Shown here: positions 31,731 to 38,156 of the stretch, in pieces
How the letters are laid out: each line of letters begins with the position of its first letter
How positions within the stretch are numbered: the stretch's first letter is position 1
Assembly: GCA_001799995.1 (NCBI GenBank)
Contig: MGUK01000039.1
Coordinates: 1 to 64,000 of the forward strand
Direction of reading: 5' to 3'
From: Elusimicrobia bacterium GWF2_62_30
GTDB lineage: Bacteria > Elusimicrobiota > Elusimicrobia > Elusimicrobiales > UBA9959
Length of the DNA stretch: 64,000 bases
Notes under the pieces: model-generated
Databases searched by the model: none
What the model saw: the letters and a program-made list of their open reading frames with translations, nothing else
Told to the model about the DNA's origin: nothing
Made by a program: the position numbers and the translations under genes

Positions 31731-31874
31731 AAGTTCTCCGGGCGCTCAAGAAGGAACACTTATTTTAGCAAAATCCGCGCGGACGCGCCCCCGCGGAGGA
31801 GGAAGAGTGCGGCGGCGGACACCGCATGTCGTTTTTACGTCGGAGAAAGAATTTTAACATCGTTCTCTTTTTTG

Positions 31875-31920
31875 TATTATATTTCTGACTTAATAATTGC
31901 GGTTCTTTCAGGAGGTAAGG
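31875..31920 (+). promoter_or_regulatory. Candidate -10 box and ribosome site for homospermidine synthase
   Basis: In the 193-bp divergent gap, 'gtattat' (-10-like TATTAT at 31875-31880) is followed by a leader of about 37 nt. The leader has a strong 'ggaggtaagg' site just before the ATG at 31924. The strong site argues against the TTG at 31897 used by the ORF track. Confidence 0.5.
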
Positions 31921-31923
31921 CAA

Positions 31924-33381
31924 ATGATCGACTTCAACAAACGCATACTCTTTATCGGTTACGGCTCGGTGGCGCAGTGCGCCCTGCCCATGCTTTTTAA
32001 GCTTTTAAAGGTTCCGGCCAGGAACATCACGGTGATGGATTTCGAGGATAAGCGCGAAGCGCTCAAACCCATGCTGGCCAAAGGCGTCAAGTTCGTGCGG
32101 CAGCAGGTCACCAAACAGAACATGGGGCCGCTGCTGGCCAAGTATCTTTCCGCCGGCGATTTACTCATAGACCTGGCCTGGAACATCGACGCGTGCGAGA
32201 TCCTGCAGTGGTGCCACGACCGCGGCGTGCTCTATATCAACACCTCCACCGAGCTGTGGGATCCCTACAAGGGCGCCGTCGACAAACACCCGACGGAGCG
32301 CACCCTCTACGTCAGGCACATGGCCTTGCGCAAGATGATCGCCAAGTGGAAGACCCCCGGCCCGACGGCCGTCATCGAGCACGGCGCCAACCCCGGCCTG
32401 ATCTCCCATTTCGCCAAGAAAGGCCTGATCGACATCGCCAACAGCCTGATAGCCGACAGGAAAGCCAAAGGCGCCAGGGCTGAAAAGCTGCGCCAGCTGA
32501 TAAACGATCAGACCTTCAACGAGCTCGCCAAAGAGATCGGCGTGAAAGTGATACATGTCAGCGAGCGCGACACGCAGATAACCAACAAGCCCAAACAGGT
32601 GAACGAATTCGTCAACACCTGGAGCGTTGAGGGCTTCCGCGAGGAAGGCGTGGCGCCGGCCGAACTGGGCTGGGGCACGCATGAGAAGACCCTGCCCCCG
32701 ATGGCCTGCCAGCACAAGACCGGCCCCAAGAACCAGATCTGCCTGGCCCGCATGGGCATGAACACCTGGATCTCCACCTGGGTACCCGACTACTGCATCC
32801 ACGGCATGCTGGTCCGCCACGGCGAGGCCTTCACCCTCTCCGACAGGCTGACGGTCTGGAAGAAAGGCAAGGCCGTGTACCGCCCCACCGTGCATTACGC
32901 CTACTGCCCGTCTGATTCGGCGATAGCTTCCCTCAACGAGCTGCGCGGCTACGACTACGCGCTGCAGCCCAAGCTGCGCATCCTCGGCGACGAGATCATC
33001 AGCGGCTACGATACCCTCGGCACACTGCTGATGGGCCACGAATACAACGCCTGGTGGACCGGCACGATCCTGGGCATAGAAGAATCGCGCAAGCTGATCC
33101 CTCACCAGAACGCCACCACCATCCAGGTAGCCATCGGCGTGCTCTCCGCGGCCATGTGGATGATAGAGAACCCGGAAAAGGGCTTTAACGTGCCCGAGGA
33201 CCTGCCGCACGACTACATCCTCAAGATAGCCAAGCCCTGGATCGGCAAGCTGCATTCGGCGAAGTCCGACTGGACCCCGCTGAAGCATTACACCAACGCC
33301 TTCAAGGGGTACAACAACCCCTACATCGACAAGAAGGACCCGTGGCAGTTCAAGAACTTCCTGATCACGGACTCGGACTAA
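31924..33381 (+). CDS. Homospermidine synthase
   Basis: The 485-residue product has a Rossmann N-terminus ('RILFIGYGSVAQCALPML') and motifs of bacterial homospermidine synthase, a saccharopine dehydrogenase-like fold: 'DLAWNIDACEILQW', 'NTSTELWDPY', 'EHGANPGLISHF' and 'GHEYNAWWTG'. The enzyme makes sym-homospermidine from putrescine with NAD as a recycled cofactor. The decarboxylase that can supply the diamine follows directly, so the pair forms a short polyamine pathway. The start is the ATG at 31924. Confidence 0.9.
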   Translation: MIDFNKRILFIGYGSVAQCALPMLFKLLKVPARNITVMDFEDKREALKPMLAKGVKFVRQQVTKQNMGPLLAKYLSAGDLLIDLAWNIDACEILQWCHDRGVLYINTSTELWDPYKGAVDKHPTERTLYVRHMALRKMIAKWKTPGPTAVIEHGANPGLISHFAKKGLIDIANSLIADRKAKGARAEKLRQLINDQTFNELAKEIGVKVIHVSERDTQITNKPKQVNEFVNTWSVEGFREEGVAPAELGWGTHEKTLPPMACQHKTGPKNQICLARMGMNTWISTWVPDYCIHGMLVRHGEAFTLSDRLTVWKKGKAVYRPTVHYAYCPSDSAIASLNELRGYDYALQPKLRILGDEIISGYDTLGTLLMGHEYNAWWTGTILGIEESRKLIPHQNATTIQVAIGVLSAAMWMIENPEKGFNVPEDLPHDYILKIAKPWIGKLHSAKSDWTPLKHYTNAFKGYNNPYIDKKDPWQFKNFLITDSD

Positions 33382-33435
33382 TTGGAATTCGGAAATAACA
33401 TTAACGGGAAACCGGAGGAACACCAGACAAGGCAT

Positions 33436-34584
33436 ATGATAACGAAAAAACAGATGCAGGACCTAGCGAAGAAGCACGGCACGCCGCTCTTCATCATGGA
33501 CCACGACGAGATACGCAAGAACTACGCGCAGTTCAAGAAATACCTGCCGCGCGTGCAGGCCTACTACGCGGTGAAGGCCGAGCCCATGCCGGAGATCGTG
33601 CGCACGCTCTACAAGGCGGGCGCCAGCTTCGACGTGGCCTCCATGCCGGAGTTCATGATAGTCCACGAGAACATCAAGAATATGCCGGACAAGAAGCGCC
33701 AGGACTGGATCTGGGACAAGATCATCTACGCCAATCCGATAAAGCCCAACGAAACCCTCACGCAGCTGGACAAGTACCGCCCGCTGGTCACTTTCGACAA
33801 CCTCGAGGAGATCAAGAAGATAAAGAAGTACGCCCCGCATGCCGGCCTGTGCCTGCGCATCAGGGTGCCCAACACCGGCGCCGTGGTGGAGCTGTCCTCC
33901 AAGTTCGGCGCGTCCCCCGGCGAAGCCGTGGACCTCATCCTCGAGGCCGTCAGGCAGGGCCTCGGCGTCGAAGGCCTCAGCTTCCACGTGGGCAGCCAGA
34001 CCACCAACTTCGAGAACTTCGTGCAGGCCATCAACCTGGCCGCGGACATCTTCAAGGAAGCCAAAGAGCGCGGCTACGACAAGATGAACCTGCTCGACAT
34101 CGGCGGCGGCTTCCCGGCCCCGTACGACGCCACCGTGAAGCCTTTCCAGGAGCTGGCCAAGAAGATCAACGCCGAGATAGAGCGCCTGTTCCCGGACCCG
34201 AAGATAGAGATCCTGGCCGAGCCGGGCCGCTTCATGATAGCGACCGCCGGCACCTCGGTGGTGCGCATAAACGGCAAGACGGTGCGCGACGGAAAGACCT
34301 GCTACTACGTCAACGACGGCGTATATCACACCTTCTCCGGCATCATCTTCGACCACCAGCACTGCCACCTCTTCCCTTTCCGCAAGGGCAAGAAGCCGGA
34401 GATCTGCGGCGTGTTCGGCCCCACCTGCGACGCGCTCGACGTGATCTCGATGTCCGAGAACCTGCCGACGGACCTGCAGCTGGGCGAGCTGATGTACAGC
34501 CCCAACATGGGCGCGTACAGCCACGCCTCGTCCACCTGGTTCAACGGCTTCCCGCCGGCCAAAGTGGTACACATAAACAAGTAA
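33436..34584 (+). CDS. Fold III PLP decarboxylase (ornithine/lysine type)
   Basis: This alanine-racemase-fold decarboxylase has about 382 residues from the ATG at 33436. A longer form from TTG 33382 begins right at the upstream stop and is less likely. PLP Lys lies in 'YYAVKAEP'; 'HVGSQ', 'DIGGGFPAPY', 'EPGRF' and the catalytic Cys in 'GPTCDALD' are all present. The family includes ornithine, lysine/ornithine and related decarboxylases. Next to homospermidine synthase, ornithine to putrescine is the best guess, but lysine to cadaverine would also make sense in this genome. A strong hairpin follows the gene. Confidence 0.88.
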   Translation: MITKKQMQDLAKKHGTPLFIMDHDEIRKNYAQFKKYLPRVQAYYAVKAEPMPEIVRTLYKAGASFDVASMPEFMIVHENIKNMPDKKRQDWIWDKIIYANPIKPNETLTQLDKYRPLVTFDNLEEIKKIKKYAPHAGLCLRIRVPNTGAVVELSSKFGASPGEAVDLILEAVRQGLGVEGLSFHVGSQTTNFENFVQAINLAADIFKEAKERGYDKMNLLDIGGGFPAPYDATVKPFQELAKKINAEIERLFPDPKIEILAEPGRFMIATAGTSVVRINGKTVRDGKTCYYVNDGVYHTFSGIIFDHQHCHLFPFRKGKKPEICGVFGPTCDALDVISMSENLPTDLQLGELMYSPNMGAYSHASSTWFNGFPPAKVVHINK

Positions 34585-34611
34585 ACGCGATAACCGTAAA
34601 CCCGGAAACCA

Positions 34612-34647
34612 TTAACCCGCATCCTGCCTGCGCAGGGTGCGGGTTAA
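34612..34647 (+). terminator. Long hairpin terminator after the decarboxylase
   Basis: 'ttaacccgcatcctgc' (34612-34627) pairs with 'gcagggtgcgggttaa' (34632-34647), a 16-bp stem with one wobble and a 4-nt loop. The tail is short and not T-rich, but the AT-rich base ('ttaa') and position suggest a bidirectional or 3'-end hairpin. Confidence 0.6.
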
Positions 34648-34702
34648 TACAAAATCGGGCACCCGGAAGAACGCAGCCGCAGGCGAGGGGACTGGGGAAA
34701 TT

Positions 34703-35878
34703 ATGCGCCGCACGAGATCACTGTTGTTATCCGCCGTTTGCCTGTTCTATACGGGCACCTCTTCAGCCGCCTCTTTGACGGTCCAAGTGGCCAAAACAGC
34801 GAAGAAGTTCTCCGATTCCGCCGCCGCCCTCGGGCTCAGCTCCGCAACCGTTGCGATATTCCAGTTCGAAGCAGACAAAGAACTCTCCAGGAAAAAGGCC
34901 AACTTCGCGGTCACTGAACTGCTTACCCATCACATCCTGGCACAGAAGACACTGCAGGTCACGGAAAGAACCCAGCTTTCAGCCGTACTTAGAGAACAGC
35001 GCCTTGGATTATCCGGAGCATTAGACGCGAAGACCGCGTCCGGTGTGGGGCAGATACTCGGCGCCCGGCTGCTAGTACTAGGGAATGTTGTTAAACTGGG
35101 GAAATCCTACCAGATAGTCGCAAAACTTGTGGATTCTAAGACAGCTGAGATTATAGCCTCTGAGGTCGTAGAAGTTCCGGCAGAAACCTTTAACAAAGAC
35201 GCAGCGCCATACCTGGTCCTTGTCCCGAAATCTCAGGCTATCGGCGCCTTTGTAACAGGCAATTATGGTTTCGTAACCACTAGGAATTCACCCACCGTTA
35301 CATACAACTCCGCTAGTGTAGTCCCAAGCAACCCTGACGCCCATAGCATTTCCACCGGGTGGGGGTTGCGATACTGGCCGGCAGATGACTACATGATAGA
35401 AGCCTCGTACTCCAGGTTCAAACTTAGTGGCGGACGTGTATATACAATATTAAATGCCACATCAGTCGACTCAAAACAGCCTCCTCTGGTCGCACTTAGC
35501 GGGTATGCCATTCAGCTAACCGTCAACCGCATTTTCGCCATCTCGCAAGTGTTCCGCTTTCATATAGGAGCTGGTGCTCTAAATGTACTAGCGACTATGC
35601 CAACAACGACGGGTAGAACCAATGGGTATTGGAATGTCTCTGTCCAATACACCTCAGAACCACTTAGCTATCTCGCCCCCATATTACGAACCGGTCTCGA
35701 ATGGAAACCCCAGGAGCGCATTGGTTTTGGAATATTCGGCAGCTATAGTCTGCTAAGAAGAACCGTAGTACAAAAAGTTATTCTGGATGACGGGACAAAC
35801 CCCACGCAGACAAGTAGCGTATGGGAAGCTGAATTGTCGCCGTTTGCACTGGAAACGACATTGTCGCTATATTTTTGA
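34703..35878 (+). CDS. CsgG/FlgO-like domain fused to an outer-membrane beta-barrel-like domain
   Basis: The start was chosen at the ATG at 34703, which gives a clean signal peptide (about 1-23) behind a 'gggga' site. Residues about 40-175 resemble CsgG/FlgO-type proteins: 'TVAIFQFEADKELS', 'ERTQLSAVLREQ' and 'LGARLLVLGNVVK'. From about 190 to the terminal Phe the sequence alternates polar and hydrophobic residues in repeated strands and ends 'TLSLYF', like a small outer-membrane barrel. Base composition falls to about 50% GC in the second half, well below the neighbours, with codons such as agt, tta and aga. This suggests transfer or fast evolution. Function unknown; perhaps an outer-membrane assembly or surface protein. 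Confidence 0.65.
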   Translation: MRRTRSLLLSAVCLFYTGTSSAASLTVQVAKTAKKFSDSAAALGLSSATVAIFQFEADKELSRKKANFAVTELLTHHILAQKTLQVTERTQLSAVLREQRLGLSGALDAKTASGVGQILGARLLVLGNVVKLGKSYQIVAKLVDSKTAEIIASEVVEVPAETFNKDAAPYLVLVPKSQAIGAFVTGNYGFVTTRNSPTVTYNSASVVPSNPDAHSISTGWGLRYWPADDYMIEASYSRFKLSGGRVYTILNATSVDSKQPPLVALSGYAIQLTVNRIFAISQVFRFHIGAGALNVLATMPTTTGRTNGYWNVSVQYTSEPLSYLAPILRTGLEWKPQERIGFGIFGSYSLLRRTVVQKVILDDGTNPTQTSSVWEAELSPFALETTLSLYF

Positions 35879-35902
35879 TGCAAGAATTCAACAGGAGACA
35901 AC

Positions 35903-37244: not shown

Positions 37245-38156
37245 CTAGCGATTTTCCGGGTGGTAGTGGGTGTAGATCTTGCGGATGTGATGGAACTTGT
37301 CGTAGAGCGTCTTTTCCGCGCGGGTGGCTATCCGGTCCCCCATGCTGACGGCGAGGTCGCCGTCCACGCAGAACTTTATATTGACCATGAAATGCGGGCC
37401 GAAGCGGTGCGCGTGGACCTCTTCCACCTTCAGCACGCCCTCCACGCCGGCCAGCGCCTCGCGGATCTGCGCGTCCAGTTCTTTGCCGGGCACGGTGTCC
37501 ATCAGCTCCATGGCCGCCTCTTTGAGGATGCCGACGCCGGTCTTGAGGATGAACAAGGCCACTACGGCGCCGGCCAGCGGGTCCACCCAGGCGTACCCGG
37601 CCAGCGCCAGGATTATGCCGACCGCCGCCGAAGCTGAAGCCATGATATCGTTGACATGGTCCTTGGCCAGCGCCGCTATCACCGGGTTGCCGGTGGACCT
37701 GCCGATGCTGCGCGTCTTAATGGCCAGGCCGATCTTGAGCGCTATCGTGAACAGCGCGGTCCAGAGCGCGTAGATGGAGATCCTGTTGGCCTCCGCCAGG
37801 CCCTTGTACAGGTGCCAGCCGCGGTCGGCGGAATCCCAGAAGATGGCCACGCCGGTGGTGATGATGAAGGCGCCCACCACCAGGGCCGCTATGGTCTCGA
37901 ACTGGGCGTGGCCGTAGGGGTGCTCGTCGTCCGCCGGCTGGCGCGAGAGCTTCACGAAGATCTTGACCGCGATGTAATAGATGAAATCCGAGGTGGAATT
38001 GATGCCGTCGGCCAGCAGGGCCGCGCTGTGGCCGACGATGCCGACTGTGGTCTTGAGCAGCGCCAGGAAGATATTGGAATACAGCCCGATATCCACGGCA
38101 AAATCGCAGGCGTCGTTGCGTCCTTCCGTCATGTCCCTAGCGCGTTCTTCGTTCAT
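37245..38156 (-). CDS. Cation diffusion facilitator (CDF) family metal exporter
   Basis: The 303-residue protein has about six spans and a C-terminal cytoplasmic ferredoxin-like domain ('VLKVEEVHAHRFGPHFMVNI'). Metal-binding pairs in the membrane are visible as 'ADGINSTSD' (second span) and 'KDHVNDIMAS' (fifth span). Such proteins export Zn, Fe, Mn or Co in exchange for protons. The first half-site has Asn-Ser-Thr-Ser-Asp in place of the zinc-typical HxxxD, so specificity may favour Fe or Mn; this is inference. Confidence 0.88.
   Translation of the reverse strand: MNEERARDMTEGRNDACDFAVDIGLYSNIFLALLKTTVGIVGHSAALLADGINSTSDFIYYIAVKIFVKLSRQPADDEHPYGHAQFETIAALVVGAFIITTGVAIFWDSADRGWHLYKGLAEANRISIYALWTALFTIALKIGLAIKTRSIGRSTGNPVIAALAKDHVNDIMASASAAVGIILALAGYAWVDPLAGAVVALFILKTGVGILKEAAMELMDTVPGKELDAQIREALAGVEGVLKVEEVHAHRFGPHFMVNIKFCVDGDLAVSMGDRIATRAEKTLYDKFHHIRKIYTHYHPENR

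Follow-up and report, generated by a model that had tools for sequence, protein, structure and literature searches.

What kind of envelope protein is encoded at positions 34703-35878 of contig MGUK01000039.1 from Elusimicrobia bacterium GWF2_62_30, and how did so GC-poor a gene come to lie there? The window analyzed here was the stretch of 64,000 nucleotides that opens this contig (assembly GCA_001799995.1). A sequence-only reading had described the product as a CsgG-like domain fused to a small outer-membrane barrel, and had taken both fusion and composition as signs of recent acquisition or rapid surface evolution. The coding sequence was accepted as real (good start codon, GGGGA ribosome-binding site). 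Its product is an integral outer-membrane protein of Elusimicrobiota, from a family that is multi-copy, non-syntenic and variable in composition; its domain order, fold classes and conservation pattern were obtained by computation, and the features are listed in Table 1. When the N-terminus was read by eye, no lipobox cysteine was seen (residues 10-13 are SAVC), and no cysteine was conserved in the alignment.

Profile searches of the N-terminal half gave Pfam CsgG (PF03783) as the best match (45.8 bits against a curated cut-off of 20.8, E=6e-12, residues 40-134), with LpoB as a weak second match. CsgG was also matched by 30/30 aligned homologues, in agreement with the original description of this half, and at E≤0.1 LpoB was matched by 30/30 and FlgO by 21/30. 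AlphaFold2 was run on 15 aligned proteins. The resulting model (mean pLDDT 80.4, pTM 0.55) contained an alpha/beta domain at residues ~25-166, a linker, and strands between residues 180 and 390 that were counted as eight membrane strands. With so low a pTM and 15 sequences in the alignment, the model does not fix how the two domains lie relative to each other. By Foldseek, the first domain was matched to the C-terminal domain of LpoB (4q6z, TMt 0.69; 4q6l, TMt 0.64) and to TolB, and the second to OmpA (TMt 0.72), OmpW (0.57-0.66) and Ail (0.53-0.58). Sequence searches against solved structures returned nothing useful. Structure prediction and fold matches together exclude a single CsgG fold over the full length and uphold the two-domain fusion.

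Since CsgG is the best Pfam match, the protein might be taken for a CsgG-type secretion channel, in which the N-domain would oligomerize and the barrel would contribute to a pore that exports a secreted fibre or polymer. We consider this very improbable. The likeness to CsgG, the curli secretion channel, was found by sequence profile in the N-terminal alpha/beta domain, and only positions 12-103 of the 210 in the profile were covered. Long inserted hairpins form the pore of CsgG; the model was without them, with tight turns where they would be, and its barrel was a separate C-terminal unit of eight strands. A conserved lipid-anchor cysteine was likewise missing. Searches of the genome (84% complete) for CsgE, CsgF and curlin, with positive controls in E. 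coli, came back empty; at that completeness, absences are provisional. A curli system or pore was rejected as an assignment on these two grounds, the missing pore-forming part and the curli partners not found in the 84% complete genome.

The N-domain is folded like LpoB (the outer-membrane lipoprotein activator of PBP1B; PF13036/TIGR02722; TMt up to 0.69) and probably shares its location beneath the outer membrane. The anchor is a lipid in LpoB and a barrel in the window protein. According to PMC9593243, an outer-membrane anchor is the site from which LpoB works. Against the NCBIfam LpoB model TIGR02722 the protein scored 20.8 bits, far under the equivalog cut-off of 110.55, and no UB2H, the PBP1B domain onto which LpoB docks, turned up in the genome (84% complete). 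Membership in LpoB was rejected on this basis. Because UB2H was not found, the LpoB partner itself is unlikely, and any partner must differ. Several homologues fall in the same broad domain superfamily as the TolB N-terminal domain (PF04052) and FlgO (PF17680). Unlike TolB, the window protein has no propeller, and no flagellar context was seen adjoining its gene.

The second domain was confirmed as a separate barrel ending in Phe, by the eight model strands, the OmpA and OmpW fold matches and the C-terminal aromatic signal (Phe391 invariant, Tyr390 in at least 90% of aligned homologues). Pfam OMP_b-brl (PF13505) was matched by 10/30 homologues at E≤0.1 and not by the window protein. Like the OmpA transmembrane domain, OmpW and Ail, the second domain has eight strands and an aromatic end, with short turns on the inner side and long loops on the outer. 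In OmpA the periplasmic domain follows the barrel, whereas in the window protein it precedes the barrel and is of another fold. The predicted periplasmic turns were short and the predicted outer loops long and variable, and the periplasmic domain was the most conserved part. Pairwise identity averaged 45% over the N-domain against 24% over the barrel, the N-domain being more alike in 99% of 741 pairs; the predicted outer loops were the most variable part (10-20%, with strong length variation), which supports the rapid surface evolution suggested at first. Variable loops and fold matches to Ail, OmpW and OmpA would also suit a plain adhesin- or receptor-like small barrel of the Ail/OmpW type, with the N-domain a mere periplasmic stabilizer without a specific partner. 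We regard this as rather unlikely, since the higher identity of the N-domain in nearly all pairs suggests a specific job.

Table 1. Features of the window gene and of the block that contains it (positions in the window; residues refer to the 391-aa product).
Feature	Positions	Strand	Basis or remark
Block between the AspT-like and AmpG-like flanking genes, not present there in four same-genus genomes	31731..35902		Three genes including the window gene
Saccharopine-dehydrogenase-family gene, likely carboxynorspermidine dehydrogenase	31924..33381	+	Pfam; in block, beside NspC-like gene elsewhere in relatives
PLP decarboxylase, likely carboxynorspermidine decarboxylase NspC	33436..34584	+	Pfam/NCBIfam; same block
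17-nt inverted repeat between decarboxylase gene and window gene	34611..34648		Unique in genome
CDS (window gene)	34703..35878	+	Codes for 391 aa: signal peptide, then a periplasmic domain of CsgG/LpoB type, then an outer-membrane barrel of eight strands
Sec signal peptide without lipobox, residues 1-22, ...SSAA	34703..34768	+	Sequence reading; alignment without conserved Cys
CsgG/LpoB/TolB_N-like periplasmic domain, residues 45-160; conserved ER...EQ.L.LSGA	34835..35182	+	Pfam, model, LpoB fold match, conservation
Conserved linker (fusion region), residues 161-179, F..DA..YL.LVP	35183..35239	+	Alignment, model
Eight-stranded barrel, residues 180-391, ending LSLYF	35240..35875	+	Model strands, OmpA/OmpW fold matches, OMP_b-brl in 10/30 homologues
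Predicted outer loop 1, residues 191-212	35273..35338	+	Model; 20% mean pairwise identity
Predicted outer loop 2, residues 246-261	35438..35485	+	Model; 10% mean pairwise identity
Predicted outer loop 3, residues 299-320	35597..35662	+	Model; length 3-68 residues among homologues
Conserved periplasmic turn 3, residues 335-339, KPQER	35705..35719	+	57% mean identity
Predicted outer loop 4 with strand ends, residues 350-376	35750..35830	+	Model; 13% mean pairwise identity

The same two-domain layout was carried by at least 38 other Elusimicrobiota proteins, with several per genome in some cases. It was present in the 30 aligned proteins and in the 39 tree proteins, which came from the window's genus, from other genera of its family and from families f7 and f11. 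Named records with the full layout were Elusimicrobia or Elusimicrobiota MAGs, apart from one labelled only 'bacterium'. Matches from outside Elusimicrobia were to the N-domain only, and no barrel was found in a Pfam scan of three such loci (L082, L085 and L087). Because barrel residues are common to all 30 aligned homologues (among them G221, Y224, R339 and F391), one ancestral fusion is the simplest reading. The pairing is an old, conserved architecture. The argument that the fusion suggests recent acquisition fails, as the fusion recurs in ~39 proteins across families of the phylum. The closest homologues of the window protein were ~41% identical. A scan of genome contigs with the window protein alone as query gave no matches, and the broad alignment contained no stretch of sufficient conservation. 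No relatives were found in viral contigs, plasmids or phages, and no paper on this architecture in Elusimicrobia was found among the open-access literature searched.

Several other loci were noted. A second, truncated family copy lies at a contig end of the same assembly (L002:1-579, G000:C60; GC 0.50), where its reading frame is cut off, and looks closest to another subclade, and genome G014 has two family members in tandem (L046:4098-6332). At L005:1156-2544 the order is reversed, with a barrel-like region (by eye) first and a CsgG-like domain last. A CsgG-like domain is joined to a von Willebrand A domain at L008:388-1977; this genome has about a dozen CsgG-like loci, several of differing architecture. 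L004 (445 aa, same genome) has the same order of domain kinds, namely CsgG/FlgO, a Gln-rich linker and OMP_b-brl; it differs from the window protein in its long linker, and no clear barrel similarity between the two was seen by BLAST.

Base composition was measured over both halves of the gene and against the host. Residues 166-391 had GC 0.491 and GC3 0.482, and residues 1-165 had GC 0.531 and GC3 0.588. The low GC first noticed in the second half is therefore correct, but the anomaly covers the whole gene. Neighbouring genes, put earlier at about 70%, in fact had GC 0.59-0.63, the highest nearby 300-base window reaching 0.68. Whole-gene GC3 was 0.527 against a host value of 0.820 ± 0.049 (315 genes, 399 kb of the same genome), ~six standard deviations below, and codon bias was 0.66, above all 118 genes of similar size (0.25 ± 0.06); the host set was made by a codon-based gene caller that omits odd genes, so 'lowest of all' would overstate the rank. 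In the gaps that the caller had left (those of 450 bases or longer), GC3 near 0.5 was also seen in several questionable ORFs. A gap with overall GC near 0.5 and a long ORF was found only at the window gene, besides the truncated family copy at the C60 end. Homologue genes ranged in GC from 0.42 to 0.67, so composition is not the same in all orthologues: in about half, GC differed by a few points from that of the flanks; some lay higher, and others 5-16 points lower. Because about half of the sampled homologues match host composition, low GC is not a family trait.

The surroundings of the gene were then compared with those in relatives. In four same-genus genomes (G005, G012, G014 and G022) the AspT-like and AmpG-like genes are adjacent, roughly 100 bases apart; in the window they are separated by the 4.2-kb block. 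An assembly error behind the interrupted synteny is unlikely, as it would require two false joins. No mobile-element repeats were seen at the block ends. The saccharopine-dehydrogenase-family and NspC-like genes sit together elsewhere in the relatives read. Within the genus, identity of the NspC-like neighbour is for the most part 85-92%, against ~41% for the nearest homologues of the window protein. For the AmpG-like neighbour, identity was 82-86% in six genomes of the genus, 71% in a seventh and below that in the remaining ones. Contig G000:C73 (L124:1-4460) breaks at the place that the NspC-like gene occupies in relatives. Positions 37245-38156 of the window hold a CDF cation-efflux gene between the AmpG-like and UgpC genes, which are only about 310-340 bases apart in four same-genus genomes, and the region looks like a plastic spot.

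Homologue loci shared no neighbours with the window except two weak ABC-transporter matches. Apart from family members and their antisense frames, no conserved neighbour stood out clearly across these loci; one loose cluster spanned eight of them, and a few clusters were smaller. In a tree of 39 proteins, 9 changes of label were needed for the window's genus, compared with 9.6 when labels were shuffled, so that genera are mixed. Paralogy as well as transfer contributes to this mixing, and faster evolution with loss of paralogues could explain part of the tree.

Support for transfer or relocation of the window copy within the phylum comes from the differing neighbourhoods of homologues, the mixing of genera in the tree and the adjacency of the two flanking genes in four same-genus genomes. 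A rival account of the low GC dispenses with transfer and invokes vertical inheritance, with fast evolution or relaxed codon selection. It agrees with the continuous variation of homologue composition and with the failure to find a donor (best identity about 41%), but same-genus homologues often match the GC of their own host, the two flanking genes meet in four same-genus genomes and the tree does not follow genera; we judge it unlikely. Recent acquisition, as first suggested, or movement is supported by composition, interrupted synteny and the tree, with no donor found.

We propose, with a probability of about 0.55, that the protein is a periplasmic docking domain anchored by a barrel with diversifying surface loops, and that this copy was placed by transfer or relocation within the phylum. 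The product would be exported by Sec, and its barrel assembled in the outer membrane by BAM. With both of its ends in the periplasm, the barrel would hold the N-domain against the periplasmic side of the outer membrane; there the domain may dock onto a periplasmic partner, either cell-wall machinery or another envelope complex, in the manner of lipid-anchored LpoB. No conserved neighbour at homologue loci pointed to such a partner. The outer loops would be exposed to the surroundings and would diversify, with phages, predators or substrates perhaps as the selecting agents. Either relocation or a transfer inside the phylum would have brought the window copy to its place; low-GC Elusimicrobia are possible donors. 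A more speculative reading, which we consider rather unlikely, is a horizontally shuffled, Elusimicrobiota-specific family of outer-membrane sensors or adaptors, in which the conserved LpoB/CsgG-type periplasmic domain would report on a hypervariable eight-stranded barrel as an exchangeable surface-to-periplasm module.

On the preferred reading of a barrel-anchored docking domain, the parts are themselves known and their combination is a variant: in a phylum that has been little studied, a periplasmic domain familiar from proteins with a lipid anchor is here carried on an integral barrel. A CsgG match alone is poor ground for annotating such genes as curli secretion channels. The family also bears signs of frequent transfer and of loop diversification.
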